Below are positions 138 through 49,342 of a DNA stretch of 64,000 nt, in pieces. The notes beneath the pieces are model-generated. The model did no database searches. It saw nothing but the letters and a program-made list of their open reading frames with translations, and was not told the DNA's origin. The stretch is from Tribonema minus (Eukaryota; Sar; Xanthophyceae; Tribonematales; Tribonemataceae), in the NCBI GenBank assembly GCA_017506865.1, contig JAFCMP010000511.1:372001-436000 (forward strand), written 5' to 3'. The stretch's first letter is position 1; each line of letters starts with the position of its first letter. A program made the position numbers and the translations under genes.

Positions 138-3100
138 ATGGGCGCGGCCGGCGGCACCGGCGGCGGCGGCGGCGGCGGCGGCGGGCAGCGCGACTGGGAG
201 GCCAAGACGGAGCACTATATGACGGCGGGGGAGATAGACATGGAGGCGTCGGACTTCACGCTCGTGCAGGCGAAGACGTTTGAGCACTGCGGCAGCCGCG
301 TGACGGCGTTCTTCGTGCAGGTGTCGGGCGTGCGCAAGGGGGCGGAGGGGCTCAACCGCGGGGACATCTGGATCGTCGCCAAGACGCTTAAGGCGTTCAA
401 CAGGTGAGCGGGCGGCGCACCGCGGGGGGCGCCGGGGAGAGGGGAGGGGGGACGCGCCACCATAGAGATGCCGAGCATTGCTCACTGCCGAGGAGGACAC
501 CACCAGTGCCACGTTGCGCAGCTACATGCCTGTGTGCGGTCCGGATATTTTCTTCGCCCGCAGATTCTTAGTAGATTTCAGAGGCAGGTTCAGGGTCAGG
601 GTTTGAGTTAGAGCTCCGATGTGACCAGTAGACCCTCAGCATGGTTCTCGACTGGAAGGCACGTGGATTAGGGTTAGGGTTAGGCAGGACGCTTAGCGCT
701 CAGCGCGGCATTGCGGCGGCGAGCAGCAGTGCTCTGCAGCGCGCCCATCGACACCGCCGCAACGCAGCAGCAGCGTCGAGCGACATGTCTCCGACATCGA
801 CTGAAGGCACCTCGGGGAACCCGGTCGTCAGGTTATTGTCGTGCTGCATTGCTGCACAATCAGCGTGCTCGCAGTAAAGCACACACAAGGTGCTCGCCCG
901 CGGCACAGAGCGCCCGGCGCTGCAGCACATGCTCGCAACACGGAGACGTCATTCTTTTCCTTTTTCTGTGAAGCCCGACGCTCGGCGAAGTCAGCACCTC
1001 GCGCACCCCCCCAGCGCATCCCCAGCGCGCATATGCTCTGCCACCAGACCCTGATGACGCCCCCTCCCCCCCCCAATCCCCCAGGCTGCGCGTCGCCTGG
1101 GAGGAGGACTTCGGCGCCAACACGGTCCCCGTGGAGCCGCCGCCGGCGCGCTGGGACGGCTGCGCGCCGGACGGCTGGGACGCGCTGCGCCTTGCGGCGC
1201 TGCGCGCGCTGCTGGAGGAGGTCAAGCGCCGCGGCGCGCTGCGCGCCTCGCAGGACCTGCGCCACTTCCTGACTACGGACCGTGTCGCGCTCGCGGGCGG
1301 CATGATCAATGCCAAGACCATGAAGCCGTACCTCGACGCGTGGGTCAAGACGTCGAGCGAGCCCGCGTGGACGCAGTCGCTGCCGCCGCTGCCGTCGCTC
1401 GCGGACGCGGCCGACGGCGGCGGCGGCGGCGGCGCCAAGCTGCCCGCGCCGCGGCCCGTGCCAGGTGATAAATTGACCTCAACTTGCATTTTATGCATGA
1501 GTGCGACAGATACCCCCTTGCCCCCTTTCTTGCTCGCTCGGTTCCAGCAGCGGCTTATTGCTGCCGCCATGCTTCGCTGCGTTGCATGGCTCCATGCTGC
1601 GGTGGCGGCACCAAGCTGCCCGCGCCGCGGCCCGCGCCAGGTGACGCCACATTGAGTTCAACTTGAAGTCAACACATCATGCGTGTGACGTTGCGCCCCC
1701 CTCACCCCCTTCCTGTTGCCTTGCTCAGACTCGCGCACCCTCCATTGCCATACCACCTTCCGCTGATCACGTCCCGATCTTTGGCACCGTGAGACAGCGG
1801 CCTACTCCTTGGCACGCGCTCACCACGAGCGCCGGACAGCGCGGCAGTGCTCATGCCCAACACACCCTGTTCTGTGTGGCCTGACGCAGCGCTCACACCT
1901 GCCATTTACCCCCCCCCCCCCCCCGCTCCACCCAAGAAACAGAAACAGCCTGTTCTGTGGTGAATGCTTACTCAGGGGGCCGGATGGCGCAGCAGCGCTC
2001 AAGCTCAATACCCCCCTTTCTCTTTGTCGTAAAGCGCTCCACCACCAATCACTCCAGGCTGACCCTTCCCCCTTCCCCCGCCCTCCCTAAATTATCTGGC
2101 GTTGAACCCTCACCGGGAGGGCCGGACGGCGCAGCAGCGCTCAAGCCCAACACCCCTCTTTCTCTCTGCCCTAGCGCTGTCCACTACCAATCACTTCAGA
2201 CTGACCCCCCCCCCCCCTTCAAATCGGCCCGTTCTCCCCTCAGGGGGGCCAGACGGCGCAGCAGCGCTCAAGCCCAACATCCCGGGGCTGCGGCCGGGCG
2301 ACGAGGCGTTCGGGCTGCTGACGTCGCGGCGTCCGCGCACGCGTCGCAGCGACACGTTCGCGCAGATAGGCGCGCTGGCGGCGGTGACGCGACAGGAGGC
2401 GCGTCTGGAGGTCGGGCGCAAGGGCTGGAGCGAAGAGGGCATGAAGCTGCATCTGCTCACGCAGGTGCGCGATGATATGCTGTTGATTGTGGATGTCGAT
2501 TATGTGCTTGGTATGTGTTGTGGTTGTGTACGCTGGGTTCAACCTTGAGGTCGGCCGCAAGAGCTGGAGCGAGGAGGGCATGAAGCTGCACCTGCTCACG
2601 CAGGTGCGGTGCGCAAATACGTAACCCTAGCTCTAATCTAACCCTAACCCTAACCCTAACCTAATCCTACTGCTCGGTGTGCACATACGCAACCTAACCC
2701 TACCCCTAACCCTTAAGCCTCGTCCTGAGGATTTGTGTGTTGCTTGCTGGAACGCACTAGCCTACCTAATTGTATCATGCTTGAATCATGCGCAGGTGCC
2801 TGATGTCCAGTGGCGTACATCTGCACCTGCTCATGCTGCGCGTACGTGCGCAGGGATGTCGTCAACTAGTTGTTATTGAACACCCATGCCTCGAACGCTA
2901 ACAAGCTTGCACACAGAAGTCTTTTTGCCTACTGCGGATATGGTGGCACTGTTTGACTCGTGGCTAATCACTGCAGCAGCAGCGACCACGGTTATTGGTG
3001 GGAGGCACTTGCGGCTAACCATCCCTTGTCACCTAGAGCTCAACGATCTTTTGATTCCTTTCCATCATAATGTCTGGAAGACACCAAACTCTGACCAAAA

Positions 3101-6100
3101 CCCTATATCTAACCTAGGTCCAAGTTGTCGTGACCGAGACCAGCAATGAGAACAGTGGTGATTCATCATTGACAATGGCGTTTCATGAATATGGTTGTTC
3201 AGATCAGCAGGCAACGCTCATGTGTTATGTCCACCAGCCTCCATACATTTTTGCTTTGTGTGAATATCTTCATAGACGTATCCAAACACGGCTGCAGGCT
3301 ATGATGAGTGCAATGGGGGGTCTGTGTGCGGCAGGTGGAGGTAGTGGCTCAGACAGCAATATTACACAGGCTCATATTGGGTGAAGCCGCCCCGCAGCAT
3401 GGGGGGGGGGGGGGAGGGCTATGAGGCCGGGCGTAACAGCTGCATCGGGGGGGGCGCGCACCTGCGAGTGCGCATACATGAGCGCCGATGAGATGGTTTT
3501 GTACACTGCTGCGCGAGTTGCTGCGCAGGGGACGACGACCATGCCGTTGCGGCCGTGGCAGCTGCGTTGAGGGGGGGTACGCACCCGTACAGTGCGCATA
3601 CACGAGCGCTTTTGCTGCAATTTTGTGCTTTTTCGTGCACGTGCGCATACATGAGCGCTGGTGCTACAATTCTGTGCTTTTCGGTGCATGGCGCTGCGCA
3701 GGGGGGGACGACCCCGGGGGGCTGCGGCGCAGCCAGCGAGAAATGCGTGTACGCGCGCTACTACAACGTCGCCAGAACAGCTGCTTTCAGGGGGGTACAC
3801 ACCCGTGCATGCGCATACATGAATGCTGATGAAATGGTGATGATACGAAGGTGAATTTGTGCTTTGCTGCGCAGGGGGGGACGACCACGGGCCTGCGGCG
3901 GCGCAGCGAGAAATGTGTGTACGCGCGCTACTACGATGACGCCAGCGGCGGCGCCAAGGCGCTGCTGCAGCGCGGCTCGTACAACCAGATGAAGTTCGAG
4001 ACGCGCTTCAACCTGGAGAAGGTGAGCGCTGACGCGTGATGATGCGCGTGTAGATATGTATGCGTATAGGTAGGTATACGTAGCTCCAAAGGTGCTGCTG
4101 CAACGCGGCTCGTACAACCAGATGAAGTTCGAGACGCGCTTCAACCTGGAGAAGGTGAGCACTGATGCGCGATGATGCGCATGTAGGTATGTACGTTACC
4201 ATACCACTCATACCTACGCCCCCCCCCCACCCCCCCCATGAGCAGATCATGTACGGTCGCATGGAGTGGCTCTCGCGCTCGCGCGAGACGGAGATGAAGT
4301 ACGCGCTCTCTAGGTATGTACGTGACCATACCGCTCATACCTACCCCCCCCACCCCTCCCCCCCCCCCCCCCACCCCATGAGCAGATTATGTACGGGCGC
4401 ATGGAGTCGCTCTCGCGCGAGACAGAGATGAAGTACGCGCTGTCCTACACGCTCAAGAAGCGCGAGGATGCGGAGCGCGGCAGCAGCGGCAGCGGCGCCG
4501 CCGCCGATCGCAAGAGCAGCACCGGCGGCGGCTCGCGGCGCACCTCAGCCGCCGGCAAGCCGACGCAGCCCTTCCGCAGGCCATCGCCAGGAGTAAACAC
4601 GGCGACGGCGGCGGCGGCGGTGGCGGGAGGGGGGGTGGCGGGGGCGGCGGGAGGGGGGGCGGCGGCGGCGGCGGGCGGCGGCGGCGGCACCGGCGGCGCG
4701 CACGTCAAGAAGAACACCATGTTTGTGCTGGACGCGCTGGCGACGCGCCTGGAGAATATCACCAAGGTGAGCACTGCTGCTGGTGATGGTGCTGCTGGTG
4801 GTGGTGGTGCTGCTGCTGCTGCTGCCTCGGCGGCGGCTGACTGTGGTTGCGATGGTGGTGGTGCTCCTGCTGCTGCTGCTGCTGCTGCTCCTCGCGGTAG
4901 TGGTGCTGCTGGTGGTGTTGGTGGTGGTGGTGGTGGTGATGGTGCTGCTGCTGGTGTTGGTAGTGGTGGTGGTGGTGGTGCTGCTGCTGCTGCTGCTGCT
5001 GCCGCCGCCGCCGCGGCTGACTGTGGTTGCGGTAGCGACGCGCGCGGCGCGGCCCGCTGCCACTGCCATGGCGAGCGCTGTCACGGAATTGTGTGCGTGG
5101 GGGCGTATTCTCACAGAAGCGGAGGGTTTGGCGGGGAGCGCAGGGGTATGGAGTCTCCCGTCACTGGTGTCATATGCCGTTCTAATGCCGCCATTTAGAA
5201 CTAAGCTGATGCCCTTCTCAGCGACCCATGGCACTTCAGATACAACAGTGCCTTGTCGTACTACGATTCTGCTATTGCATCGGCGGGGCATGAGCATGCC
5301 GTTGACCGCTGCCGCCACAACCTTATCCCAGGATACTGGCAAAAGCCAGTTGATCGCTGCCAATTTCAGCAGCTTTCACCCCTCTTCCCCCGTGCCCTCC
5401 CCCGGTCGCCAACTGCACCGCATGCCGGGCCAATGGGATCGCGTCGGCAGGTCATGAGGCCGCTGTCGGGCGCGGCCACTACGTCCACATACTTATGTTG
5501 TACTTAAAGCAAACTATCACTACTATTTCTGGTCCTCTTAAGCCCCCCCCCCTACATTGCCACGCTGTCCGCCAAAAATGCCAGGCCAACGAGATCGCGT
5601 CTGCGGGGCGCGAGGCCGCCGTGGAGCGCTGCCACTACGTCTCGCGCATCCGCGGCCGCAGCACCATGCCGCTGCCGGCGCAGCTCGCGGCGCTGGAGGA
5701 GCTGGCGCAGGAGAAGCTGGAGCACTGGGTGGCGGTAGCGTGGCCCGCGATGGGAGCCGCGAACGTGTACAACCGCCTGCGCGAGATTGACAACTTCCTT
5801 GACAAGCGGCGCGTGCGCTGCGCGCAGGTGAGTGCGCGATGCATCGCCTGTTGAAGCAACGGCAGCAGTGCGTGTGCAGTTGTCCTACTAAACGTAATTC
5901 AGACGGCAGTGAGCTAGCTGGATTACCTTCTGTGTTGCCTCAGCACAGTTACAGCTGCGCGCAGGTGCGGTGACACACATTGGCACGCACAGGGCCTGTG
6001 CACACAAACCTCCATCTTCTTGCGATTTGCACTGCTGTTGAGCACTAGGCTGAGGCCCGCGTGCCCCCCCCCCCCCCCCCCCTTCAATGCTGTTCAGTTC

Positions 6101-9100
6101 GCACACTGCGCCCGCTCGCTTGCGCTACACCCTAACCCTAACCCTAACCCAGTCCCTGCTGCCAGCCATGCGCCAATCCCCCCCCCCCACCGCCCATCCC
6201 CTCAAAGGCACTCGCAACGCTCATCCGACGCGACCTCCCTGCGCCCCCTTGCACGCTCAGCATTGCCGTTATCGTGGCTGTAACATTGTTGTCACATCTG
6301 CTGCCGTTACGCCGGCCCCCATCGAGCCGCTCGTACCCGCGCTTTCCCTCGCCGCCGCCTGCCGCGCATTTACGTCTTGCACCTTCACCCCTGCGCCCCC
6401 TTGCGTGCTGAGCGCTGCCTCTCACATGCACGCAGCTCCTCCTGCAATCTCCGCGCGCCCTCCACTTGATGGAATAACTGCAGACACGGTTCACTTGCAG
6501 GAATCACTGCAGCGAGGGTTCACACCGCCAACGTTGCACACCGGATGCATGTGTGCACGCAGGTAGTGCATGTGCTGCTCATTGACATACCCCCCCCCCC
6601 TCTCCTCGCTTGCCCCTTGTGCTGCCTCTACCCTACCCCTACCCCTACCCTTATCTCTAGCCCTCAACCCTAATTTCAGACCTTAACCCTAAGTAACTCC
6701 AACCCTGCATGGCTGTGTGCTCGCAGGTGGTGCGCCTGATGCAGGAGGCGCGCGCCCCCGAGGAGAAGGTTCTCATCGCCGTCACCACGTGTGCGCGCCT
6801 CACGGACGCTGTGGAGGCAGAGGAGCAGGTAAGCCGCCATTTGCATATTGTCACAACCTTTCAGGGTTTGACGTGGGGGTTGAGGTAGGTTTCTAAGGTT
6901 AGGTTAGGGTTGGGGTAAGGGTTAGGTTAGGGTTGAGGAGGAGGTGCTCATCGCCGTCACCACGTGCGCGCGCCTCACAGATGCCGTCGGGGCGGAAGAG
7001 CAGGTAAGCCGACATTTGCATATTTTTACAACCTTTCGGGGTTTGTCTTGGGGTTGAGGGTAGGTTTGGGGTTAGGTCAGGGTTAGATGAAGGTTAGGTC
7101 TGGAGTAGGGTTAGGTTAGGGTTGAGGAGGAGGTGCTCATCGCCGTCACCACGTGCGCTCGCCTCACAGATGCCGTCGGGGCGGAAGAGCAGGTGAGCCC
7201 TCATGTGTGTGTCACCCCATTCGGGGGTAGGCGTAGGGTCAAGAGGTAAGTAGGGCAGGGCAGCTCCTGCTTCTGTGCACCATGTTATTGCATTTAAGGG
7301 CTGCTCCTGAGTCTTGCACTCCGCACCTAGACCATTGCTGCTGATTTCAACATTATTTGCGCACGCATCTGCTGCCGTGCCGCCGCCATCGCCGCTGCCG
7401 CCACCGCTGCCGCCACCGCTGCCGCCGCCGCCAGGGCCTGTGGGCGGCGCTCGAGCCGCAGCTGGACGCGCTCAACTTCAAGTATAAATTGAAGTCGATG
7501 CACTCAATGCCGCGTTGCTGCTGCCGCCGCCACTGCCGCCATCACCAGGGCCTGTGGGCAGCGCTGGAGCAGCAGCTGGACGCGCTCAACTTCGAATGCC
7601 AATTAAATAGGTCCACTTCAAATGTCACTTCCATTCTCCATTGAAATTGGTGCACTGAAACCGCCGCGCTGACCTCGACACTATCCATTTGCGCACGCGT
7701 CTGCTGCCAGGGCCTGTGGGCGGCGCTCGAGCCGCAGCTGGACGCGCTCAACTTCAAGTATTCATTGAAGTTGACACACAACAGTAGATTTGCCGCGCTG
7801 ACGTTTTGCGCTTGTCTGCCGCCGCTGCCGCCAGGGCCTATGGGCGGCGCTGGAGCCGCAGCTGGACGCGCTCAACTTCGAGCGCGCGCGCCTCTGCAAG
7901 TTTTCATTGCAGTTGACACACTGAAACCGCCGCGCTGACCTCGCCACCGTTTGTGCGCGCGTCTGCCGCCGCCGCCGCCAACGCCGCCGCTGTTGCCGCT
8001 GCCGCCGCCGCTGCCGCCGCCGCCGCCAGGGCCTGTGGGCTGCGCTGGAGCCGCAGCTGGACGCGCTCAAACTTGGAGTATGTGTGTATACATTGAAGTT
8101 GACCCACTCAACTGCCGCGCTGACGTTTGCGCACACATCTGCTGCTGCCGCCGCCATCGCCACTGCCGCCGCCGCCGCCAGGGCCTGTGGGCGGCGCTGG
8201 AGCCGCAGCTGGACGCGCTCAACTTCGAGTATACACTGTAGTTGATGCACCGGAACCGCCGCGCTGACCTCTATACTGTTTGCGCTTACGTCTGTCGCCG
8301 CCGCTGCCGCCGCCGCCGTGGCCATTGCCGCCAGGGCCTGTGGGCGCTGCTCGAGCCGCAGCTGGACGCGCTCAATTTTGAATGCCATTTGAATATGGTC
8401 ACTTCAAGTGTCACTTCAAATGTCCATTGAAGTTGATGCACTGAACCCGCCGCGCTGAACCTCGACATTGTCCATTTATGCATGCGTCTGCCGCCAGGGC
8501 CTGTGGGCGGCGCTGGAGCCGCAGCTGGACGCGCTCAACTTCGAGCGCGCGCGCCTGTGCGCGAGCGCGCTCGCGGCGGAGGCGCGCGCGGAGGAGGCGT
8601 CGCGCGGCTCGCGCAAGGCCGCACGCGAGGCTCACGCCGACGTGCAGCGTGCGCGCAAGGCGCTCGGCTTCATCTCCAAGGCCGTGGTCAAGATCCGCAA
8701 GGGCGGCATCAAGCCCGACAAGTTTGACCAGCTCGCGGAGCGCCTCGACGCGGCCGCGGACGCCGCGCACGAGGAGTACCGCGACGCCGTGCGCGACGCC
8801 AAGCCCGCGGGCGCGCATGCCGCGGACGCGCTGCGCCACATGGAGGCCGCCGAGCGCCATTACGAGGTGTGTTACTTCTGTGCTGGTTGAATTTGGAGTT
8901 GCATCAAAGTTGAAGTTACATCAAAGTTGAAGTTGTTGCTGCCGCGGACGCCGCGCACGAGGAGTACCGCGACGCCGTGCGCGACGCCAAGCCCGCGGGC
9001 GCGCACGCCGCCGACGCGCTGCGCCACATGGAGGCCGCCGAGCGGCATTATGAGGTGCGTTTGATCTTCATGAAAGTTATTGAAGTTACACTGAAGTTGA

Positions 9101-12100
9101 AGTTGCATGAAAGTTGAGGTTACATTGAAGTTGAAGTTGTGCGTGCGCGACGCCAAGCCCGCGGGCGCGCACGCCGCGGACGCGCTGCGCCATATGGAGG
9201 CTGCCGAGCGGCACTACGAGGTGTGTGTTTTCTTGTGTGATGGGTGAAATTGAAGGTACATTTGAAGTTGAAGTTACATCAAAGTTGAAGTTGTTGCTGC
9301 CGCGGAGGCCGTGCACGAGGAGTACCGCGACGCCGTGCGCGACGAGGTGTGATACTTCTGTGCTGGTTGAATATGGAGTTGCATCAAAGTTGAAGTTCTG
9401 CACGTGCGACGCCAAGCCCGCGGGCGCGCACGCCGCGGACGCGCTGCTCCACGTGGAGGCCGCCGAGCGCCACTACGAGGTACATTCAGTAGTATATAGA
9501 CTACTGTATAGTTGATGTAATGACAATTCAAGTTGAAGTTAAATGCCAAGCCCATGCCCCACGCCGTTCTTTGTGATAGTTGAAGTTGAAGTTGCATGGA
9601 GGGACGCGCGGACAGTGCCAGGCCCGCGGGCACGCTGCTCCACGTGGCAAAGCTCAAGCCGCCCCGAGCGGCACATTGCTCCATTCTCCTCCGCTGTCAC
9701 CGCGCCAGGGCCTGGACGAGCTTGGCACAGCGGTGTACGACTGCATCGAGGTGATCGTGGTCGACGAAGACCTTGGTGAAAGCCAACCTGATGTTATCCG
9801 GCAACTGAATGCATCACAACTTCAATCCCGCTCCCAAGGCGCCAGGACCTGAACGAGCTGGGCACCGCTGTCTACCACCGCATCAAGGCGGTCGAGGAGG
9901 ACGAAGACCTCAGTTGAAACATGTTGATCTCCCATATGCAAACTTCAAACCCCTCTGCGTGAAACATTATGTCAAGAGTAGCTCTCCTATCCCCTCTGTT
10001 GTCATTGCGTCAGGACCTGGACGAGCTCGGCACCGCGGTGTACGACCGCATCCAACCTTGGTGAAAACCAACTTGACCTTGTTTGGCAACTTGGCGTTAT
10101 CCGGCAAACTTTGATACACAGCAACTTCAGTTTTGATATACGGCAACCTTAATCCCTCTGCTCTCAACGCGCCAGGACCTGGACGAGCTCGGCACAGCGG
10201 TGTACGACCGCATCAAAGTCGTGGAAGAGGACGAAGACCTAGGGCTCGCCGCCGACGCCGCAGGCAGCGACGACCCCAAGGCGCGCACCAAGAAGCGCGA
10301 GCTCGCGCTCGTGCAGGAGGCGATCGAGGTCGCGCTGCAGATGGCCAACAACGCGTACGAGCTCGCGAGCCGCGCGTGCGACAACGCGCGCTTCGACATG
10401 CAGGCCGCGCTCGCGGAGGTCGCCAAGGTGCGCGTTTCGCGGCGCCTGTAACTTCAACTTCAACTTCAACTTTGCTGCCAAACCTAACCGCGCGAGCGTC
10501 TGTGGCACAAGTGGTAGAGCGCGCGGGCTGCCATGGAAACACAGCCAGTGTTGTAACTTCAAGTACAACTTCAATGTGCTGCCATCTGGCGGTGGCATGC
10601 CACGTGACAGCAGCTGCTGCGGAGAATCGACAAATACGCGCACGCCAGCCAATGACTCACAACACAAGTGACTCGTGATAGTAACGGTTTCAGGCCTGGT
10701 CACGACGCACAGCTCTTGTGAACAGCAGGCGGAGAAGACCATTAAGCGCGTGGAGCTCGAGGGAGCGGCACGCGCACAACAACTCATGACCCACCCATAC
10801 GACTCATGTCCCACTCATGACTCACAACAACTCGTGACTTTTGACCCGCACGCGCAATGAGTCATCACTCACTCATGACTCATCTCAAGACTCATGATGA
10901 CTCATGACTCTTGAGAATCGCAGGCGGAGAAGATCATCAAGCGCGTGGAGCTGGAGGAGCGGCGCGCGCGCAACGACTCATGACCCACCCGTACAAATCA
11001 TGACTCATTCATGATGCTCATCTTCTGTGAACTGCAGGCGGAGAAGATCATCAAGCACGTGGAGCTGAAGGAGCGGCGCGCGCGCAACGAGTGCGACGCC
11101 GTGCAGGGCTGCCCCCCGGACGAGGACCTGCCTGATGACTCATGACTCACTCATGACTCACTCACAACTCACAACAACTCATCTTGTGAATGGCAGGCGG
11201 AGAAGATCCTCAAGCGTGTGGAGGAGTGGCGCGCGCGCAACGACTCATGACCCACCGACACTACTCATGATCCACCCACATGACTCTTGACCCACTCACA
11301 TGACTCATGACCCACTCATGACTCATTCATGACTCACAACGACTCATCTTGTGAATGGCAGGCGGAGAAGATCATCAAGCGCGTGGAGCTCGAGGAGCGG
11401 CGCGCGCGCAACGAGTGCGACGCCGTGCAGGGCTGCCCCCCGGACGAGGACCTGCCCGACGACTGCCCCTTTGCCACGTGGTCTGCCGAGATGCGCGAAC
11501 TCATGGAGACAAACCTCGCCAAGTTCGTCAAGGACGGGCAGTACCGCGTCAATATCGACAACCGCACGTTCAAGGTGGGCACGATTATCACGGTGCTGCA
11601 CTATGAAGGGCATAAGTTAAAGTTGAAGTTAAAGTTGAATTCAAGTTGAAGTTGGAGTAGCGTTGGTGAAGAGCTCATGGAGACGAACCTCGCCAAGTTC
11701 GTCAAGGACGGGCAGTACCGCGTCAACATCGACAATCGCACGTTCAAGGTGCGACGCGCTACGCACGAAGTCCACGCAACTGCTAGTATCTGAATGTTCA
11801 GAAGTCAAAGTTGAAGTTGAGGTAGCGTTGGCAAACATGCACGTGAGCTCAAGGAGACGGACGTTGCCAAGTTCGTCAAGGACGGGCAGTACCGCGTCAA
11901 CATTGACAACCGCATGTTTCAGGTGAGAACGCGCCCCGCAAAACGGATGTTGAAGTTGTAAATGTACAATTGAAGTGGAAGTACCTATTGCGACGTGGTC
12001 CGCGGAAGCGGCTAATGGAGATATGCTGGGGTGGAAGCCGCTGCAGCGACAGCAGCCGCACATGTGAAGTGCGGCACTTAACCTTAAGTAGCCCTAACCC

Positions 12101-16794: not shown

Positions 16795-18222
16795 GAAGCG
16801 AGAATGCTGTGGTGATGCCTTGCTGGCCTGACGCACGGTGGCTGGATTGCAATTTGAGCGCTTGGAGCCCAGCGGAGGGTCGGCGGCAGCTGGGGAAGGC
16901 AGTCGCAGCGGCAGGAGGCGGCGGCAGCAGGCCAAGCGGCAGCTGCGCCGCCAACACTGTCTGTAGCCGCTGTATCTCTGTCGCATACAGTGTGGTGCAG
17001 AGGTGCTTGCGGCGCCGTGCTGTCTTGCTTTTGACGTTGCACTTTGAGCCCGTGCGGTGGCAGCGGCGTTTGCAAGCGGCACTTCGCTGACTGTAGCGTT
17101 GGGGTACTGGCCAGGTGACGGGCAGGGGGTTGGCAGAAAGGCGAAGGCGTAGGCGTTATAGATTGCTTGTGGGTGAGTGAGAAGGGAGGGGCTGCGGCGG
17201 TCGCTGAGCCCTGTGCTGCGCCAATGGCGTGTCTGTCTCTCTTTGGTGTAGTGTGAAGTAGCGTCTTGCATGCTTGCTTGACGTCATGAATGGCCAGGGC
17301 GTTCCGATTAGTTGAGCGTAAAACCTCAATACAATGCAGGTTCTAGCCCTGTGGCTTGATGTGTCGCTGCGTTGTGCTTCGTTGTGAGGTATGCTACGCA
17401 GCTCAAGGTCGAGCCAGTCTTCAGTCTGCGGCAGCAGGTGAATCGCGCACATCAGCAGGGCGAGCAATGCTGCTGTGGTTGTGGACAATTTCAAACTTGC
17501 GACTTGGCAGCCTGCTAATCATAAGCTGCTGCTCGTGGTGCGTGTTGCTCGCAAGTTCAAACTTTGCGTATGACCGGCTGCTCATTGCTGCAGGCGGCCG
17601 CTGTCAGGCTGCGTATGGGACCAGTGTCACTCAAGCGTGTGCGCAGAGTTTGTTGGAATGTGGACCTCACTCGTAGTCTAGTGTCAACAACCGTCAGTTA
17701 CTGTTGTGTGCGTTTTCCCCTCTGCGCTGCGCTTGTGTGCACATTTTCGTCAGTCCATGTCCCCTTACATAGTCAAACCGAATGAGAGCAACGATCAGAC
17801 ATCAATGGCTCACCGGCCAGATTCCTGTGACTTTTGGCACGCCCGAGAGTCAACTTCCTCTACTAGCGCAGTACTTGAAGTTGCACCAGGCGTCATATCC
17901 TACCATGGGAAGACAAAATGATGATCGGTTCAATTGAAGTTCCGTCAGTGGAGCCTTAGATGCTGGCTAGTCTCTACAATGGTTTCACGGTCGCTGTCCA
18001 GCGTTGTGACCCTGAGACTGAATTCTGATGTGATGAGCGGGCCATGCAACATACCATTAGCTCTGCAGGTCTGTGAATGACAAACACATTTTTAAGTTGC
18101 GCGCCGTGTACACATGTGAGGGTGCGTGTATGTCGATTATGTACACCAGTTGCCATGAACGGACTTTCATGTAGGTAATGTATCACTGATGTGATGCAGG
18201 CAGGCCGCGCTTTGTGCGTGAG
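16757..18222 (+). repeat. 1.45-kb segmental duplication, left copy
   Basis: This block begins inside the last exon of the preceding gene (about the last 13 codons) and runs through its 3' flank. It matches 19776-21262 in the same orientation with many substitutions and small indels. Shared landmarks include TTGAGAAGCGAGAATGCTGT-like sequence near 16795 and 19817, a matching segment near 17290 and 20290, and GGACTTTCATGTAGGT near 18162 and 21189. Open frames on the opposite strand of the two copies do not correspond, so I see no conserved gene in it beyond the exon tail. Confidence 0.85.
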
Positions 18223-18277
18223 CACGCCCCCCGCAACCACTCAACCACCAAGGTCGTCACTTGTTGCCAGGACTGCT

Positions 18278-18371
18278 ATGAAGATTGCTGCTTTTCTCCT
18301 GTTTGGCGGGGCTGCTCTGGTCGATGGCTTTCTGACCGGGCCAGCTACTTTCACCCTCGCTCCTGGCCGGC
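18278..18371 (+). pseudogene. Truncated first-exon copy of the plastid-protein gene
   Basis: ATG at 18278 opens a copy of the signal-peptide exon found at 18895 (MKIAAFLLFGGAALVDGF). It runs to about 18371, where it abuts an inverted copy of the same exon. No second exon follows in the right place, so it is a fragment. Confidence 0.75.
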
Positions 18372-19675: not shown

Positions 19676-19775
19676 GAGTGTTGCACCTTAGGCCGGCGCG
19701 AAGCATGACCTGGGTATGGCGGCGATACGAGCTGGTGTCAGTAAGTGTCGACACACGGGCATACCCCCTTGCAGC

Positions 19776-25938: not shown

Positions 25939-25983
<45 letters not shown>

Positions 25984-40113: not shown

Positions 40114-43100
40114 ATGATAATGAGGGCGGTGCTGCTTTTGATGATGCTGCTGGCCGGTGAGTGGTTCGATGTATTCTTGGATTCTTCTAGTTCGACGTAC
40201 CAGTACCTTACTTGCCCGAGTTAATTTGAAGCTCTTGACTAATTCCGCATCAACTTGAGCTGACCCAACGTATAGGTCTCTCTGTGTTGGGAGTCGTATC
40301 TTCGCAAGACGGCAGCTCTGGGTGAATGTACTTTTATTATTATATTCCACTTGTGGCTGTGGAAATGCCATGTTGTAGGTGTGTCGCCTTGTTCTCACTC
40401 TTGGATGTAGCATGCAAAGCTTGCACGCCACACCCCGCCCCCCACATCACCCCCAACAAAGCACCCGCAAGCGACTGTCCCCCACATACTAGCAGGGATA
40501 CCAAACAAAGCTACAAGACTCTCCCCCCACAGACAGACCCGTCTTAGGGCCACCCAGCTCCACGCAGACTCCATCTCAAAGTTTTCATGCAGGCCAAGGT
40601 CACCATAATGGGCCCTGAACTGGAGATTGTGGCGTTGTACATGTTCGTATTTGAACAAGTAGGAACTTTTAGCTGGATAAGACGTGGACAGAACCTGCGG
40701 TGTCTCCAATACTTCACCAACTGCCTCGCAGACGGCTCGGCTTGAAAATCAGCCATCTTGATGTGACACCTAGTCGATGTACTTGTAGTGTGCAGGGTGA
40801 TAGGGCCACAGTGGTTGTGGTTGTCCCGTGCCGCTCAACTTCAAAGTTGACTTTAGCATGCGGAGCACTGCACCGTTGCGTGTGCCTTCCCCCCTGCAGC
40901 CGCCACCGCAGCAGCAGCAGCAGGGCGCAGCTGAGGAGGTCGCCGAGCGCGATGTGCTGCAGCAGTCACTAGCTTGGCGGCCCCAAACATGTAATGACAT
41001 GTATGGAGTCTCAAGTTCAGAGCCTGTGCTGCAGCGCGTTTACATCACGTCACGAGTACTTGATTCAGATGAGTAATGACACTCGCACATCCTTGCATTT
41101 CCACACCTCAAATCATTGCACGCCACTGCCCTCATCGCGTCCTGCGCGCCTCCCCTCCCCTCGTGCCCCCCGCAGCTGCGCGCGCCGCCGACGCCGCCGC
41201 GCCACCACCCGCCGCCGCCGCCAGGAAGGTCGCCGGCCTCGAGGCGCTGCGGCGCTCGTCCGGCGGCGGCCCCGCGCTGCGCGCCACCGACGCCAACCTA
41301 CACACCTACCTGGCCACGGGGCCGCGCCCGTACGACCTCTTCATCATGTTCACGGCGCTGTCGCCGCAGTACCGCTGCGCCGTGTGCCGCGCGGGCGTGC
41401 AGGAGTTCGAGGTGGCGGCGGCGCAGCACGCGCAGGCGGCGGCGGCGGCGGGCCGCGGCGGCGGCGGCAGGGCGGCGCGGCCGGCGTTCTTCATGGTCGC
41501 GGACGTGGACCTGAACAGGAAGGTCTTCCAGGGCTACGAGGTACGGCGGCTAGGCACTGATGCTGAGCACTGATGAGCACTGATGCGCTCGTTGCTTGCT
41601 GCGCTCGCAACTGGCTGCTGCTGCTGCTGCTGCTGCTGCGGCTGCTGCTGCTGCTGCTGCCGCTGCTGCTGCTGCTGCGGCTGCTGCTGCTGCTACGACT
41701 CCTGCTGCTGCTGCGGCTGCTGCTGCGACTGCTGCTGCTGCTGCTGCTGCGGCCGCTGCTGCTAGCCTGCTAGCTGCGAATGCCGCCGCTGCCACGACTG
41801 CGCTTGCATTAAACCGCCGCTGCCCCTGCATCAGTGCTCAGGCAGCAGCACGGTGCAGCTCTCACTTGTGTCGTGTCCGCCACTCGTGCATGCCGCCGCC
41901 GCATCTTCCCCCCCTCTTTCCCCCACCACCACCACCTGTGCCACTGCCAGTGTCGCTGACGCTGCATCCGCCGCTTGCGCACGCTGCCGCTGCTGCCGCC
42001 GCCACTGCAGCTGCAATCGGTGCCCCAGGTGGCGCACTTTGCGCCGGAAGCGGCACCGGGGGCTGGCGCTGGCTGGCCGCAGGCGGACATGATGCCTGTC
42101 ACCAAGCTCTTCACTGCAGAGGACATCGCTCAGTTTGTTGGCGACAAGACGGGGTTTCGGTGAGGGTTAGGATTAGGGCTAGGATTAGGGCTAGGGTTAG
42201 GGGGATAGGGATAGGGTGAGCGGACACGATGCCTGTATTTAAACTCTTCACTGCGGAGGATATTGCTCAGTTCGTGGGCGACAAGACGGGGTTTCGGTGA
42301 GGGTTGGGGTTAGGGTCAGAGTTAGGGCTTGGAGTACGGCTAGGGTTGGGGTTAGCGTGAGCGGACTTGATGCCTGTCATCAAGCTGTTCACTGCGGAGG
42401 ACATTGCTCAGTTTGTGGGTGACAAGACAGGATTTCGGTGAGGGTTGGGGTTAGGGTCAGAGTTAGGGCTTGGAGTACGGCTAGGGTTAGGGTTAGCGTG
42501 AGCGGACTTGATGCCTGTCACCAAGCTGTTCACTGCGGAGGACATTGCTCAGTTTGTGGGTGACAAGACGGGGTTTCGGTGAGGGTTAGGGTTTCGGGCA
42601 GGGCTAGGGTTAGAATTAGGGTGAGCGGACATCATGCCTGTTGCTAAGCTCGTCACTGCGGAGGACATTGCTCAGCTCGTGGGTGACAAGACAGGGGTTC
42701 GGTGAGGTAGATCTTGAAGTAGAGTTAGGGTTAGGGTTAGGGTGAGTGGACATGATGCCCGTCTCCGAGCTGTTCACCGCGGAGGACATTGCTCAAGTCG
42801 GCAACAAAACGCCGTTTGAAAACGGGGGTTCGGTTAGGGCTAGGGTTAGCGTCAGGGCTAGGGCGGGGTTAGGGTGAGCGCATGATGCCCGTCACCGAGC
42901 TCTTCGCATCGAACGACACTGCTCGGTGTGTGGGCGACAAGACGGCGGTCCGGTGACGGTCAGGGCTAGGGTTAGGGCTAGGGCTAGGGTGAGCACACCG
43001 TGCGACCATGCGCGCTGCCGCGTAACTCGTACTGCTGGTCTGCGAAATTACGACGGCGACAGCACACGCGGACGACGCCAAACTGGAGCTTGCCGGATTC

Positions 43101-45307
43101 CCTGAGCTCAAGTCGTGGTGGCACACGCGTGTGTTGCGATACGATACTGCCGTTTCGGAGTGTCCAATACCAATTGGTGAAGTACACTCAAGTATACTTG
43201 AACTTGACCAGATCACAGCAAAACGCCCCCTCCCTCTGCGTCTGCGCGTGTCGGGGTTGAAAGCGCGGCGCCCACGTTGTGGAGCACAGCGCTGAAGGAG
43301 AAGGCGGGGGCGCTGCGAGAGCGCTGCGCACTTCTCGGTGCACCGTGCAGATGGACTGCGCTGGTGCAAATTTACATGGTGCAGACGTGCTTCACACGTT
43401 GCCGATTGCAGCTTCCATTACGCCGACTGGCAGCAGCGGCGACTGACGCCAATGACGCTGCTTGCTGATCCCTGCCTCTCATCTGCCGCCCCTCCGCTGC
43501 AACGACAACACCGGCTAATTTGCGCAAACGCTACCTACCTATCACCCCTCCCCCTCCCCTCCCCCATGGCAGCTACACCATATACTAACTGCGGCGGCCG
43601 CTGATGCATGAACACTGCAACGGCAACGCCGGCTCATCTGCGCAAACGCTGCCTATCACCTCCGCCCCCCCTCTTCCACCATAGCAGCTACACCATATAC
43701 ATGCGGCGGCCGCTGATGCATGAACACTGCAACAACAACGCCGGCTGATTTGCACACATTCTGCCTATCCCCCCCCCCCCCCTCCCCCTGGCAGTTACAC
43801 CATCTACCGCTCGCAGTTCGCGGCACGCATGGCGCTGCTCGCGCTGCTGCTCTTCCTGGTCGGCGCGCTGCGCACGGCGATCACCAATGTGGCGCTGGTG
43901 CTGCGCGTCGTCCGCAGCCCCACGCTGTGGCTCGTCGTCTCGCTGCTTGTGTACACATTCTCTATTAGCGGCGCCATCTTCGACATCATACGCAGCCCGC
44001 CGCCGTTCGTCATCAGCGCTCAGGTGACAACGCTTGGATGTAGTCTGTGCATTTGACATCAGAATGCGGTGCTAAAAGTTGAAGCGTTAGTACATTAAAG
44101 TGTAAATTTGGTGCCATCTTTGACATCATCCGCGGCCCGCCGCCGTTCGTCATCAGCGCTGAGGTGACGATGCTTGGAGATGCGCACGTGCAGTGCAGCA
44201 GCCTTGCGCCGCCAGTCGATGCAGTCGCGTGCTGTGGAGCGGCAGTGCGCCGCTGCCGCCGCCGCCGCCGCCAGTCGATACTGTCACGTGCTGTGCTGCC
44301 GAGCGGAAGTGCTCTGTTGCTAAGAGCCGCTGTTCGTCATCAGCGCTCAGGTGGACGTAGACTGTGCATTCGATGTCAGAATGCAGTGCTCAGAGTTGAA
44401 GTTTATATACATTCAAATGTGACTTTCCGTGCAGCATGTGTTGTGCGTCATCAGCGCTCAGGTGACGGCGCGCTGCAGCTGCTGCCGCCACCGCCGTCAG
44501 TCGATATTGTCATGTGCTGCCGAGCGGCAGTGCTCTGTTGCTGAGAGCCGCTGTTCATCACTAGCGCTCAGGTGACGGTGCGCCGCTGCCGCCGCTGCTG
44601 CTGCTGCTGCTGCCGGTGCGCGGCACATGCACGCTGCCTCCGCAGTGCTTCTTCCGTGGCTGCCAATGTCGCCATGCTCTTTGGAATGAGCTGTTGTTCT
44701 TTAGAAGCTGTATCGACGGTCGTCCGTTGTCGGCTGATGTCAGTGTCAAGACTGTAGAAGCACCGCGGCGATGTGCAGTCTTTACAATTTTTCATCAGAC
44801 GCGTTGTAAAGAGCGCGCCTGCCTTGATGCAGCACTGCGCAGGCCCAGTCTTCAAGTTTGCGTCACGCGTCGCAGTGCTCAGCTCGCCTCGTGACGACGG
44901 CAAGCAACTGCCTTAGCACTCCCATGAACTCGCTTTTACGCAGCACACGTTGAAACGGAAACAGAACTGGAAGTCAGTTCGGCAGCGACGCACGCGCATC
45001 ACTGCTCACCCACACACCCCTATACCTCCCCCCCCCCCCCCCCGGAACCCCCCGCCTGCAGACCAGAAAACCCGTATACTTCAGCCCCCAGCCCAACTCC
45101 CAGTACGTTGTGGAGGGCTTCATCGTGGGCATCCTCAACCTCACCACGGCCTTCTGCGGCATGGTCGTGGTGGCGATAGCGCCGCGCATCAAGGCGCGCG
45201 CGCTGCGCCAGACAGTTACGCTCGCCGCCGCGGCGCTCTTCGGCCTCCTCTTTGCGCTGTCGGTGACCATCTACACGTGGAAGAACCGCTGGTACATGGC
45301 GCGCTGA
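40114..45307 (+). CDS. OST3: OST3/OST6-type oligosaccharyltransferase subunit
   Basis: Five exons, 40114-40156, 41176-41540, 42011-42159, 43795-44023 and 45062-45307, join in phase to 1,032 nt (343 residues), the usual family size (MagT1/TUSC3/Ost3). Residues 1-18 are a signal peptide (MIMRAVLLLMMLLAAARA). A lumenal thioredoxin-like domain follows, with the CxxC redox pair CAVC near residues 82-85 after DLFIMFTALSPQ, and the family's VPQVAHFAP strand. Exons 4 and 5 encode four membrane segments, with FSPQPNSQYVVEGFIVG before the third. The protein acts in the ER membrane, holding acceptor proteins by mixed disulfide so that the oligosaccharyltransferase can glycosylate Asn sites near cysteines. 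The start is set by the only ATG exon whose donor phase makes the signal peptide continuous. Introns 3 and 4 carry arrays of exon-edge copies. Confidence 0.92.
41608..41766 (+). repeat. CTG-triplet tract in OST3 intron 2
   Basis: About 155 bases of imperfect CTG/CGG/CCG triplets follow 68 bases after the exon 2 donor. Its frames read as poly-Leu, poly-Cys or poly-Ala, but it is spliced out in the model and family alignment leaves no room for it. Confidence 0.8.
42160..42960 (+). repeat. Array of six OST3 exon 3 end copies with TTAGGG spacers
   Basis: Copies of the last 77 or so bases of exon 3 lie at about 42221-42297, 42362-42438, 42503-42579, 42625-42701, 42747-42833 and 42877-42954. Nearly all end in CGGTGAGG-like donors and start after GTGAG, GTTAG or similar. 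Spacers of 40-70 bases are built from TTAGGG variants. In the first four copies, most differences from the exon are at third codon positions. Confidence 0.9.
43555..43720 (+). repeat. Two copies of the OST3 exon 4 acceptor edge
   Basis: Segments with a C-rich tract, AG, and CTACACCATATAC (compare TTACACCATCTAC in exon 4) lie near 43566-43585 and 43680-43702. The GCGGCCGCTGATGCATGAAC spacer is repeated too, so here the duplication unit includes intron sequence. Confidence 0.8.
44105..44580 (+). repeat. Four copies of the OST3 exon 4 end in intron 4
   Basis: Copies of the segment ending GTTCGTCATCAGCGCTCAG followed by GTG lie at about 44110-44163, 44328-44351, 44445-44462 and 44548-44572. The first is the longest and covers the end of the second membrane segment. 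Spacers contain repeated CGCCGCTGCCGCC and GAGCGGCAGTGCTCTGTTGC units. Confidence 0.8.
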
Positions 45308-47031
45308 GTTTGTGGAGCACTGCTGCCAGACGGCTGCGCGCGGCGCCCCGCTGAGACTGCGCAGGGGGGGGGGCTTGAGGGGCGGCCGCGGCCACATAGG
45401 CGGCGGCGGCGGCGGCCGCGGCGGGGGCAGCGGCGGCGGCTTTCCACACTCGCGCTGCGGCACTGCAGCAGCGGCGGCGCGCGTATACACGCTGCTGCTG
45501 CTGCTGCTGCTGCTGCAGCAGCAGCAGCACGCGCAAGGTGGCGTTGGGGCCGCCGCGTTGGCAGCAGCGCACAGGCGCTGGCATGCACCCCCGCAGCGCC
45601 ATCTAGGGATACGCACTGCACAGAGCACGCGCCATGTGTGCAACGGCATCGTCCGCCACGACGTGGACACGGGCTGTGCATTCGGCGCGTCGCGCGACTG
45701 CAAGTTGAACAATCTGAACAGCCTGCTCCCGCGCTTGCCGCGGAGGCACCGGTGCGGCGGCCGAGAAGCCGTTTCACGTGACCATATTGGCGTGACAGTG
45801 TTGCAGGGTGCGGGACAGAGTTATTGCATGCCATGGCGCACCATGACACGGGTTAATGCACACACTGTGCATCTGTGCGCGCCGCTCACATCTGCTGCCA
45901 CTATGCTGCACGTGGCACACACACACGTACGCCTTGAAGGATGATTGGGTGCATGCTTGCATACGTAGCTGGTGCGCGCATGTCTAGCTACATGGCCACA
46001 ATGCTCTTGGGCCCACCCTAATGCATGTGATGGGTACATGTGTAGGCAGCAGCCATGATCCATTTCACCCGCCCCAGTCATTCATGTCCTCAATCTTGTG
46101 AGTTCATCCATCAGCATGATACAATATGCCGTGCCATGCGAGCCACTGATACGAGCTGTGGTGCGTATTCGCAGCGCTTTTGTTGGGGTTGTTCATGAGC
46201 GCCCCCCATACATGTGGCCCAGAAAACTCTGTGCGATCTTGCAGTCAGGTACCAACACACCCACATGCAGGTATGTAGCGTTTCACATGTCGAAATGTGA
46301 AATGTTGGGGTGGACTCGGAAAGCAAGGGGTGGAGGCTACTGCTTCATCGCAGGTGTGATTCGTAGCATGAGCATCAGCATTGGGGTGCATCACAAGTGG
46401 CCTGATTTCCTTCAGTCATTAGAATTGAGGCCTGTTCCCCCTTTCCTTTGCTGTCGAGCCAGATGTGTATGTACAGCTCTACCACCAGCATGCGGAAGGA
46501 CTAGGTCAGTGTGCTCTCGAGGCTGTCTGTAAAATCACAGGGCTGAAGATCGAGCCCTGCCTGGGTCTGGCTCATGATTTTTTTCTCGGTCGATTCATTT
46601 CTTTCTAAAGAATAGTCACACACAGGTGCATGCATCGCAATGATGACATTCAAATTTTTCTAGCTGCTTCATTTGGAAAGCTTTGCCATCATGTGCGAAT
46701 TGCGTAATCTATGACTTAGGTGTGCTGCCGAGCCCTGGCACTTACCTCTGCAGCTTTGGCAATTGCCAACACTTCTATCTTGCTTCTCTGTGCGTGTGGC
46801 ACTGCCAGGTGAACACTGCGGCGCGCGAGCTACGTGTACACCAACAGCAGCTCTGCGTGCACGTTTGCGAGCTGACTGCCTTGCAGAGGCCAGGTCAAAT
46901 CTCCAGCAGAAAACAACAGCACGAGCAAACACAGACGCACACACACCAGTCGGCCGCATCAGCATGTGTGTCATTTGGTGTGTTGGTATGTACAGGTCGC
47001 ACGTGCTGAGCCGTGGCGCACTCCGCTCTTG
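45308..47031. other. Region between convergent OST3 and p24 genes
   Basis: 3' flanks of two genes. 45360-45540 is low-complexity GGC/GCC and CTG triplets. No supported gene is seen; open frames at 45312-45944 and 46098-46532 lack splice or family support. Confidence 0.4.
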
Positions 47032-49342
47032 TTAGATCAGTTTTCGCTTCTTGAAGAAGCTCTTGAGGTATTGCACCTGGAATATGCCCGCCACCACCAG
47101 AATCGTCATCTGCACCATGGGCCACCAGAGCGCCGTGTAGTTCATTTGAACGCTGCGCACGCACGGAGAACAAGAGCCGATGACGCAGAGGCACAGGACA
47201 TGAGTTAGCGAAAAGCGCCATCAAACCAGTGTCAATTTCAGGTGCACACTGCGAGCGCGCACTGCAATGATGGTGTATGTAGCATGCGATTGCATCCTGT
47301 GGTTTCCAGTACTGACGTGCATGTCAACACGTGCGGCCGTGGAGTGCCTCAGTCAAACGATGGCTGAAAGCCTGCGCTACTTTCAGATGCCTGCGACCAT
47401 TTGTACTTGCAAGTTGAAGTAGCAAGCTGTGTGTACTTTGAAGCAGCATACACACGCACTCGCTCGCCCCCGGTCTGTGCTGGGCACCTGCCCCCACCGG
47501 CGGCGCGCAGTCAATTACGCAATTGTGCGATAACCTGCTCAAATGCGTGGCATTGCTCGGCCACAGGCCTCAGCGTTCAGCCCCACACTCCCACACAACG
47601 TACCCGACAATATGCCTCGGATACCTACGGTAACCCTAACCCTAGCCCTAACCCTGACCCCAAGGCCCGGGTATCTACAGTACATGCATGAACAAGCCGC
47701 ACGTATACATTGACATGCCGCGGATACCCACCTTGTTCTATGGACATGCCAACTCCTTCTCCTGCATATACATAGTCCGCTGCGCGTTGGTGGGTACGGT
47801 GACTACGCGGCAGCCCCGGCATGAGCTGCACCTGCGCCCGCATAGCTATATAGTACATACCTACGCATATGCATGCCTACCTTGTTCTGTGGAAGTCCAC
47901 CTCCTTCTCCTTCATGTACTCGCACTCGTCGATGACGCGGGCGCTGAGGCAAGCTGCTACATCTTGTAACATACATACACATGCCGTGTATACCAACCTT
48001 GTTTTGTGGAAGTCCACCTCCTTCTCCTTCATGTAGTCAGCCTCGTTCAGTATCGCAATGACGCGGTCGCTGAGGCGTTCCAGCTGCACCTGCACTGCGT
48101 CCAGATTGTTCTTCTCGGCCTGCTGCTCGTAGTACTCGTCGTCCTGCGCGCGCCAAAACAAGAAGCAGCGTCACACTTGAAGTAGTTGAAGACAGTGCAA
48201 CTACACAGACAGCGGTTGCGTAGCTACGGAGTTCAAAACATCGCATCAGCGCTTGTCGCAGGGGCCCACATCATACGCAGCAGCGTCACACTTGAAGCAG
48301 TTCTGCTGTAAGAGGGCACTCGCAGCAGCGGCGCTCGGCATGGCGGCTGTATACCTACTTGCCGCATGCTCATGCAAGGGCCACGGATGATGACATGTAG
48401 ACAACAAACCTACTACTTCAAGTTGAATTTGAATCTACTGCACAGCGCCGTCTCGCGTGAAGCACATGATAGTGTGAGGCCTGGTGACAAGGCTGTTTGT
48501 TGTCTGCTGTAAACGCGCATGCCAGGCATTTAAGCACTACACCGTGTAAGCTCCTGTCCGTCATCAGGTCTGTCATCACTTTTACATGCAAACGCAGGCC
48601 TCGGGACACCCACCATCTGAGGCCAGCAGGAAACTTCAACATCACATGTGACCCCCCCCCCCCTCCCCGCCTGCGCGCGCACCCCGCCATGAGCGAACGG
48701 CGCCCAAATCTCTCTCAAACCTACAAACGTATACACGCACATACTCAAGACCCACACACACGCGAAAAATACCCATACCAACCCACGACCCCAGCCCCAT
48801 ACACACCTGCCCCAGCGTGATCTCCAGCTCCACGCGCCACGCCCAAACACACATACATGGAAAAAGAATCAAAAGACCAAACACGTATACAAACAAACAT
48901 ACATTCATACCCAACACCCACATTTCCGACATCATCATCATCAGATGCTCATACCCTACGCACGATTCGCACAGATACATACCTGCCCCAGCGAGATCTC
49001 CAGCTCCACGCGCCACGCCCCCGCCGGCGCCGCCCCCTTCACCCCCACGCAGATCCCATACTCCCCGCTCTCCGGCACCTCATATTCATACGTGCTCACC
49101 GCCTCCGTCACCGAGTACTGAACCGGCTTAACAGTTGCGGCGCGCCCTGTGCGCCCCGTTCGCGCAGCCGGCCGCCCCCCCCCCCCGCCCCCCCACCCCC
49201 CCCCTGCGGCAGCGTCGAAGGGGGACACCTCGATCTCGAGCCCCCTCCCCTCGGCATAGTCCAGGAAGCGCGTGCGGATCTGCAGAACGGTCTCCTCGGG
49301 GCGCTCCTCTACGAAGCAGCGCCGCGGCACGACCTGCGGGCA

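Follow-up and report, generated by a model that had tools for sequence, protein, structure and literature searches.

Stacks of exon-edge copies suggest that introns grow by duplications of about 150 bases

Why should introns carry repeated copies of the edges of the exons next to them? This question is raised by the window analyzed here, 64,000 nucleotides corresponding to positions 372001-436000 of contig C508 in a 158-Mb eukaryotic genome of 554 contigs. It contains four intron-rich genes (A to D), whose exon models we derived by hand from the reading frame and the splice consensus; the 31 exons obtained in this way are backed by Pfam matches and an open frame in three of the four genes (B, C and D). 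The window was selected because extra copies of exon edges had been seen in its introns, and it is richer in copies than the sequence elsewhere. The copies are probably best explained if segments of about 150 bp that span splice junctions were locally duplicated in tandem, while selection held the exon.

We compared each 60-bp exon edge with its own intron (27 introns, 54 junctions; Smith-Waterman score of at least 36) and obtained 79 matches on the same strand and 1 on the reverse strand. The 26 other introns summed gave 20 matches, at most three being counted per query and intron. At a lower threshold (score 30), the corresponding numbers were 87, 5 and 42. The 79 copies were split into 38 donor-edge and 41 acceptor-edge copies; two of the 79 (25148-25195) are low-complexity and doubtful. 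The initial annotation had described copies across four genes and both strands with up to seven per junction, and this was confirmed, the maximum of seven being reached at the acceptor of exon A8. Its statement that almost every junction is accompanied by copies went too far, since at least one copy was present at 33 of the 54 junctions (61%). When the window was compared with itself (E 1e-5, after filtering of low-complexity sequence), direct pairs also predominated over inverted ones (117 versus 6), with a median offset of 276 bp for the direct pairs.

The position of the copies depended on the edge from which they came. Donor-edge copies lay in the first half of the intron in 36 of 38 cases and acceptor-edge copies in the second half in 33 of 41 cases, which is the polarity originally reported. 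The junction was reached by 68 of the 79 copies, and among these the GT was kept in 31 of 32 and the AG in 31 of 36; the claim that each copy keeps its own GT or AG thus stands for most of the junction-reaching copies and not for every copy. Furthermore, exon 30-mers located at least 100 bp from the intron-facing edge gave no copy in 552 tests in the window, in agreement with the view that edges and not exon middles are copied. In the same test, 113 same-strand copies were found upstream and 105 downstream, compared with 0 and 10 in the reverse-strand control. Opposite-edge matches in the window numbered 2 and 5. On average, the copies differed from the exon by about 8%.

The copies are real and are also present beyond the window, on its own contig and in chaperonin loci of other contigs. 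A gene finder trained on the window, which predicted 22 of 34 kept exons exactly when compared with the 31 hand-made ones, was applied to 200 kb of flanking sequence and to seven chaperonin loci on five contigs. Low-complexity query windows were removed here, as in the flank-seeded, repeat-rate and simulation counts reported below. Copies were found at 66 of the 216 predicted junctions (31%), a further reason to abandon "almost every junction", and none of the 135 copies was reversed (score 40). In the flanks, copies were seen at 20 of the 83 acceptors and at 31 of the 85 donors, with 2 and 0 opposite-edge matches; in the chaperonin loci, it was 6 of 23 acceptors and 9 of 25 donors, with 0 and 0. 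A search with the Pfam profile Cpn60_TCP1 (56 matches), which is independent of the gene finder, similarly revealed extra partial matches adjoining exons. On C51, profile positions 52-88 and 53-81 were matched upstream of an exon matching 51-147; on C5, positions 177-224 recurred downstream of 155-224; and on C135, positions 242-278 lay upstream of 241-322. As a separate observation, among the 122 of 191 kinesin candidates that were scored, exons with adjoining partial matches resembling exon-edge copies were seen at G000:C511:561699-562092, C246:700950-701488 and C479:315317-316192.

Is the intron next to the junction copied together with the exon edge? According to the initial annotation, the similarity is confined to the exon in many copies. 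Adjacent 40-mers indeed gave an identity of 0.88-0.90 for exon and 0.61-0.65 for intron over a floor of 0.34, in a measure that is seeded by the exon and broken by insertions and deletions (indels). An exon-seeded search recovered 180 copies from 244 edges (exon identity, 0.884; intron identity, 0.671), and when the intron flank was used as the seed, 213 flanks yielded 91 copies of the opposite kind (intron identity, 0.805; exon identity, 0.684). From these searches, 26 exon and 57 intron queries of low complexity were dropped, and 11 intron matches ended short of the junction. The per-edge ratio of exon-seeded to intron-seeded copies was 1.7, about 2 being expected from half the divergence. 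Of eight close pairs, seven (all except left:38044) gave an intron-intron alignment that was better than each of 200 shuffles. The block aligned at left:11936 (471 bp) was itself a further exon-edge copy, and the A8d and B7a alignments extended in part into such a copy.

An indel-tolerant alignment of 160-bp flanks without masking aligned 141 of the 180 copies, with a corrected intron/exon divergence ratio of 1.90 (1.78 for the intron-seeded set). Because flanks of this size can include neighboring exon-edge copies, we repeated the alignment with exon-derived sequence masked. The intron flank was then alignable in 121 of the 180 exon-seeded copies, including 25 of 41 in single-copy families; unrelated junctions gave a background of 1.8% at donors and 5.0% at acceptors. 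The masked divergence was 0.084 for exon and 0.147 for intron, a ratio of 1.83 (1.77 for the intron-seeded set), and a simple reckoning in which only the exon is constrained predicts 1.6-2. Simulated neutral tandem duplications passed through the masked pipeline were alignable in 59 of 77, 80 of 137 and 91 of 137 cases (58-77%). For two thirds of the copies, exon-only copying is thus ruled out by the intron-seeded search together with the indel-tolerant, masked alignment. The exon-only appearance on which more exotic alternatives had been based is largely due to exon-seeded searching and to indels in the intron part.

We then asked whether the copies are under selection. All copy-versus-exon differences were distributed over the codon positions as 76:64:195, a third-position excess. 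After splitting the differences by origin (215 copies, 100 families), this excess was found to sit largely in differences common to several copies, i.e., in changes of the exon, and coding selection on the copies was rejected as its source. Of the differences common to at least two copies, 84 of 122 were synonymous versus 31.8 expected, which fits changes arising in the constrained exon after copying. Private changes in families of at least three copies were near neutral overall (92:71:112 by codon position; 99 of 275 synonymous versus 86.0 ± 6.6 expected). The outermost copies look neutral (36:36:28; 24 of 100 synonymous versus 28.7 expected), 76 of 90 gaps were frame-breaking, that is, not multiples of three, and a stop codon was present in 7 of 157 ungapped copies. 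From exon to copy, mean splice-site scores fell from 6.32 to 4.71 for donors and from 5.96 to 3.59 for acceptors; the copy scored at least as high as its own exon's site for 57 of 99 donors and 24 of 76 acceptors. A conveyor-belt decay with rank, which we also considered, was only weakly present (mean rho of -0.29 between exon identity and rank, 10 of 16 families negative).

Successive exon-edge copies were spaced by a median of 156 bp (interquartile range [IQR], 132-188; n = 204). Similarly, for intron windows without any exon-derived base, the nearest downstream copy was at a median of 163 bp (IQR, 112-222; n = 425). The proportion of windows with a local copy was 0.23 at 0-60 bp from the junction versus 0.19 at more than 300 bp elsewhere, and 0.36 versus 0.38 in the window, while reverse-strand local copies of intron windows did not exceed 0.014. 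Since repeat rates are alike near and far from junctions, junctions are not the sole duplication site. Across 264 kb, local direct repeats reached 0.27 in introns, 0.13 in exons, 0.08 in other noncoding sequence (a class that may include missed introns and transposons) and 0.07 in long open reading frames, inverted repeats being at about 0.01.

Introns were also the site of most telomeric tracts. TTAGGG-type telomere repeats open contigs C2 and C3, and 47 of 51 telomeric tracts lay in introns, at 0.425 per kb compared with 0.045 per kb in other noncoding sequence, about a tenfold difference. They occurred in 30 of 98 introns, 29 in sense and 18 in antisense orientation. In the window, interstitial TTAGGG/CCCTAA tracts are seen in introns in both orientations, for instance at 2622-2669, 12188-12237, 12359-12414 and 42159-42202. 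The association of such tracts with duplication breakpoints was weak, a telomeric hexamer being not clearly nearer to them (0.137 versus 0.095 within 20 bp).

What process could leave such a pattern? As read from the sequence, the direct orientation, the polarity, the restriction to edges, the intron flank in two thirds of the copies, the faster divergence of the intron, the near-neutral private changes and the spacing of about 150 bp would fit the following route. Segments of about 100-200 bp would be duplicated locally in introns, head to tail and in direct orientation. Where the duplicated segment spans a junction, the copy joined to the exon body would stay spliced and under purifying selection, and the other would drop into the intron and decay, taking along an exon edge and a GT or AG of its own. 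Later rounds would add copies or reduplicate old ones, until as many as seven stood in an array. No copies of exon interiors are seen, since a duplication not crossing a junction would make the coding sequence longer. That one copy is spliced and that duplication was the physical process are likely parts of this route, and slippage, break repair or re-replication may have caused it. Simple tandem duplication across a junction, leaving in use the copy that adjoins the exon body, had been named at the outset as a source of the polarity, and our data support it. Most copies would then be nothing out of the ordinary: relics of local duplications across a junction, made visible by the difference between an exon under constraint and an intron that drifts. 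What is unusual is how dense they are and how much they are concentrated in introns, together with the preferred length of the unit, its register with the junction and the small number of indels in the parts copied from exons.

Several observations weigh against this explanation, at least in its random form. In the masked alignment, 59 of the 180 copies had no detectable intron flank. The simulated divergence ratio in the same pipeline was 1.11-1.26 compared with 1.83 in the real data, and indels were about 6 times rarer in exon than in intron parts compared with 1.1-1.6 times in the simulations; either the intron changes faster than simulated or exon parts are somewhat protected. Additionally, non-outermost copies had an excess of synonymous changes (75 of 175 versus 57.1 ± 5.7 expected; z = 3.1), and copy-copy divergence was 0.103 in the exon part versus 0.131 in the masked intron part, where neutrality predicts equality.

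The placement of the copies raises a similar difficulty. Our simulations used duplications of 156 ± 38 bp and constrained exons, with deletion and indel settings that were guesses. The real proportions of junction-flank and interior windows with a copy were 0.46 and 0.36 in the window and 0.23 and 0.20 elsewhere. Five uniform runs gave 0.11-0.26 and 0.23-0.44, the flank being at about half the interior value (e.g., 0.16 versus 0.32). A threefold junction boost gave 0.25 and 0.20, matching the sequence elsewhere, and yet produced 0.44 exon-edge copies per junction versus 0.70 observed elsewhere and 1.52 in the window; with a sixfold boost, this value was 0.95. GT or AG was kept at 0.88-0.91 in the real copies versus 0.58-0.77 in the simulated ones, in which indels and deletions were harsher than observed. 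The exon extent of the copies had a median of 54 bp (IQR, 45-69; n = 97 of 103) versus 85-93 bp in three simulations. For first copies in 42 families with exons of at least 200 bp, the median spacing was 165 bp (IQR, 145-182), and the unit consisted of 56 bp of exon (IQR, 45-76) and 98 bp of intron (IQR, 79-123). Uniform breakpoints were rejected (Kolmogorov-Smirnov test, P = 2e-5; n = 39 families with spacing below 230 bp), a rejection that bears on the random version of the duplication model only. The narrow exon extent indicates either that units are phased to the junction or that copies with long exon parts, which could be spliced in as pseudo-exons, were lost and very short ones missed, and the data do not separate the two. 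Random duplication alone does not account for three features: the units are in register with the junction, they are in excess there, and the exon parts of the copies contain few indels.

These points led us to consider whether the splice junction attracts duplications or sets their phase, a unit the size of a nucleosome or an Okazaki fragment (about 50 bp of exon and 100 bp of intron) perhaps being duplicated repeatedly in transcribed genes. This proposal, which we regard as possible and tentative, would add a cause of placement to local tandem duplication and would not replace it. The 56-plus-98-bp unit of first copies, the rejection of the uniform null and the junction boost of at least three required by the simulation argue for it, as do the intronic excesses of direct repeats and telomeric tracts over other noncoding sequence. 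Against it, repeat rates are alike near and far from junctions, the short exon parts could reflect selection against long ones (pseudo-exons) combined with the score threshold, and any link to nucleosomes or replication would be conjectural, with breakpoints not clearly nearer telomeric hexamers. The suggestion in the initial annotation of a copying process that targets splice sites holds in a weak form, given the junction register and the over-representation relative to uniform simulation; junctions are not the sole site. With slightly more reserve, we hypothesize that junction-phased duplication might proceed via breaks whose repair plants telomere repeats, so that introns would grow from their ends and stack decaying exon edges. 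Repeated gene conversion from the exon, renewing the exon part of the copies, is unlikely: the lower copy-copy divergence in exon than in masked intron parts, the few exon-part indels and the lack of a clear fall of exon identity with rank would be in agreement with it, but the 122 differences common to several copies and absent from the exon persist, and the divergence ratio requires no conversion on the simple reckoning.

That selection retains the copies because they act as splicing decoys or as alternative edges of exons seems less likely still. Splice dinucleotides are kept in 62 of the 68 junction-reaching copies of the window, more than half of the donor copies equal or exceed the donor score of their own exon, and the synonymous excess in non-outermost copies and the sixfold rarity of exon-part indels keep part of this earlier suggestion alive; on the other hand, private changes are near neutral overall, outermost copies look neutral, most gaps break the frame and mean splice scores drop, with fewer than a third of the acceptor copies equaling their exon's own site. 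It is very improbable that most copies stem from intron gain, either by tandem duplication of coding sequence containing a proto-splice site, a published route (PMC2891723), or by introner-like elements. The model of intron gain places the end of the upstream exon at the 3' end of the intron, whereas nearly all donor-edge copies lie in the first half, and introners would share sequence among introns, contrary to the 20 cross-intron matches over 26 introns versus 79 in the own intron. Both are contradicted for the bulk of the copies, and a subset could still fit. An assembly artifact, in favor of which we found nothing, is hardly credible, as the copies differ from the exon by several percent, have distinct flanks, obey splice polarity and are present on other contigs. 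Junction-spanning tandem duplication thus remains the explanation that we favor.

The individual copies can be located as follows, the percentages giving the identity of the copy to the exon edge. Gene A (138-15370, plus strand) has 13 exons and may extend beyond A13: A1 138-403, A2 1085-1464, A3 2244-2464, A4 3907-4021, A5 4386-4766, A6 5585-5827, A7 6727-6828, A8 8498-8866, A9 10176-10427, A10 11362-11574, A11 12882-13071, A12 14209-14484 and A13 15114-15370. The frame is open across the A1-A3 joins and across the A4-A13 joins, the A3/A4 link being assumed. A Pfam search of the joined model gave no family for A4-A13. All its copies are on the plus strand. In the first half of the gene, we found one donor copy each of A2 (1596-1640, 91%), A3 (2544-2603, 92%) and A4 (4095-4154, 98%; the unit 3956-4060 matches 4089-4193 at 93%, intron included), three acceptor copies of A3 (1831-1862, 1975-2014 and 2119-2156, 84-95%), single acceptor copies of A4 (3737-3775, 90%), A5 (4246-4310, 83%) and A6 (5429-5485, 81%), and two donor copies of A7 (6944-7003 and 7133-7192, 83-85%). 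The seven acceptor copies of A8 span 7435-8381 (starting at 7435, 7549, 7711, 7835, 8030, 8182 and 8335; 89-100% over 47-59 bp), and its three donor copies span 8995-9479 (8995, 9161 and 9420; 92-93%). Further downstream are three acceptor copies of A9 (9711-10055, 82-95%), four acceptor copies (10729-11243, at 10729, 10924, 11038 and 11197; 83-98%) and two donor copies (11689-11918, 94-97%) of A10, and three acceptor copies (12437-12761, 87-92%) and three donor copies (13124-13992, at 13124, 13426 and 13952; 87-93%) of A11. Separately, several genes have in their introns repeated occurrences of the motif TTGAAGTT (e.g., at 8893-8934, 9080-9138 and 11614-11658), which may be a dispersed low-complexity element.

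Gene B (37934-24780, minus strand) encodes a predicted protein kinase with a cNMP-binding domain (PF00069, Pkinase, E 3e-64, profile 2-263; PF00027, cNMP-binding, E 3e-13), with 759 codons open over the 11 joined exons: B1 37934-37701, B2 36727-36571, B3 35113-34967, B4 33144-32890, B5 32565-32428, B6 31583-31389, B7 29926-29729, B8 28591-28490, B9 27355-27249, B10 26160-25780 and B11 25145-24780. The 5' edges of B6 and B11 are the least certain in this model. Its copies, all on the minus strand, include single donor copies of B1 (37553-37601, 96%, the intron flank being homologous past a small indel), B2 (36373-36417, 98%, homologous past a large indel) and B5 (32028-32069, 83%), and multiple donor copies of B3 (four at 34180-34856, 75-92%), B6 (three at 31194-31373, 87-92%) and B7 (three at 29405-29638, 88-100%). 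Acceptor copies were found for B2 (four at 36862-37302, 88-97%), B3 (one at 35217-35276, 95%), B4 (six at 33255-34079, positioned at 33255, 33411, 33569, 33703, 33871 and 34039; 83-93%), B5 (a short one at 32733-32758, 92% over 26 bp), B7 (four at 30074-30713, positioned at 30074, 30279, 30474 and 30673; 90-95%) and B9 (one at 27433-27460, 89%). The two doubtful matches mentioned above belong to the B10 donor and the B11 acceptor (one each, 76-84%).

Gene C (41174-45308, plus strand) is OST3/OST6-like (PF04756, E 7e-61, profile 6-292 of 294, across exon joins) and comprises C1 41174-41540, with a provisional start, C2 42011-42159, C3 43795-44023 and C4 45062-45308. Six donor copies of C2 (42241-42949, plus strand, 75-92%) are associated with a tandem array with units of about 140 bp (array at 42083-42593, period 141), and C3 has two donor copies (44110-44350, plus strand, 91-96%). 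Gene D (49342-47035, minus strand) is p24/EMP24-like (PF01105, EMP24, E 6e-25, residues 83-203 of the joined model) and consists of D1 49342-48983, again with a provisional start, D2 48143-47998 and D3 47152-47035; D1 has one donor copy (48807-48844, minus strand, 97%) and D2 has two (47732-47929, minus strand, 79-92%).

Outside the four genes, a direct repeat of about 940 bp with 78% identity lies between genes A and B (16748-17678 and 19771-20642, about 3 kb apart), and a second pair (17990-18210 and 21010-21245) has the same spacing. A 348-bp tandem repeat of 1.9 copies (55236-55893, minus strand) is located inside a long Gly/Ser-rich open frame. At 57711-58661 (minus strand), a 317-codon open frame resembles a membrane protein. 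Long open frames without evident introns occupy 59718-63242 (plus strand), and motifs in the later part resemble those of a C-5 cytosine methyltransferase. An Rfam scan of the window gave no match at gathering thresholds.

Overall, these data suggest that introns grow by duplications of about 150 bases. How introns lengthen is normally obscured, since intronic sequence decays rapidly. In the present case, each duplication can be read against the constrained exon, and the rate, size, placement and decay of duplications thus become measurable from one genome. If the register on the junction is mechanistic, duplication would be tied to chromatin, replication or transcription at splice junctions. 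Additionally, copies with splice sites and coding-like sequence may mislead gene predictors, and a hidden Markov model search for exons already lists some of them as extra matches.

How do these stacks compare with known systems? We found no description of such exon-edge stacks in the literature as searched by title and the start of the abstract, most subscription papers and preprints lying outside that coverage. Exon duplication and exon fossils likewise leave decaying duplicated coding sequence in introns. Unlike such fossils, the copies described here are not whole exons but edges, about 40-70 bp long and with a single splice site, and whole-exon duplication, including mutually exclusive exons, is contradicted by the empty interior tests. 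Satellite or minisatellite arrays in introns are also made of head-to-tail units of preferred length; in contrast to these, the present units include part of a constrained exon and stand in register with the splice junction. In 2009, Gao and Lynch reportedly treated the gain of introns through tandemly duplicated coding sequence. Introner elements, described in Amoebophrya and named there for Micromonas and Aureococcus (PMC7789003), are similar in being repetitive sequence in introns of a unicellular eukaryote; in contrast to them, no family was seen to be common to our 27 introns, and the copies belong to their own exon and have canonical GT-AG sites. Finally, the intron gain via tandem duplication of coding sequence with proto-splice sites outlined by Lehmann et al. 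2010 (PMC2891723) also involves local tandem duplication of exon sequence that turns intronic together with splice sites. However, the stacks differ in that existing introns would grow at their ends, with reversed polarity and many rounds per junction.

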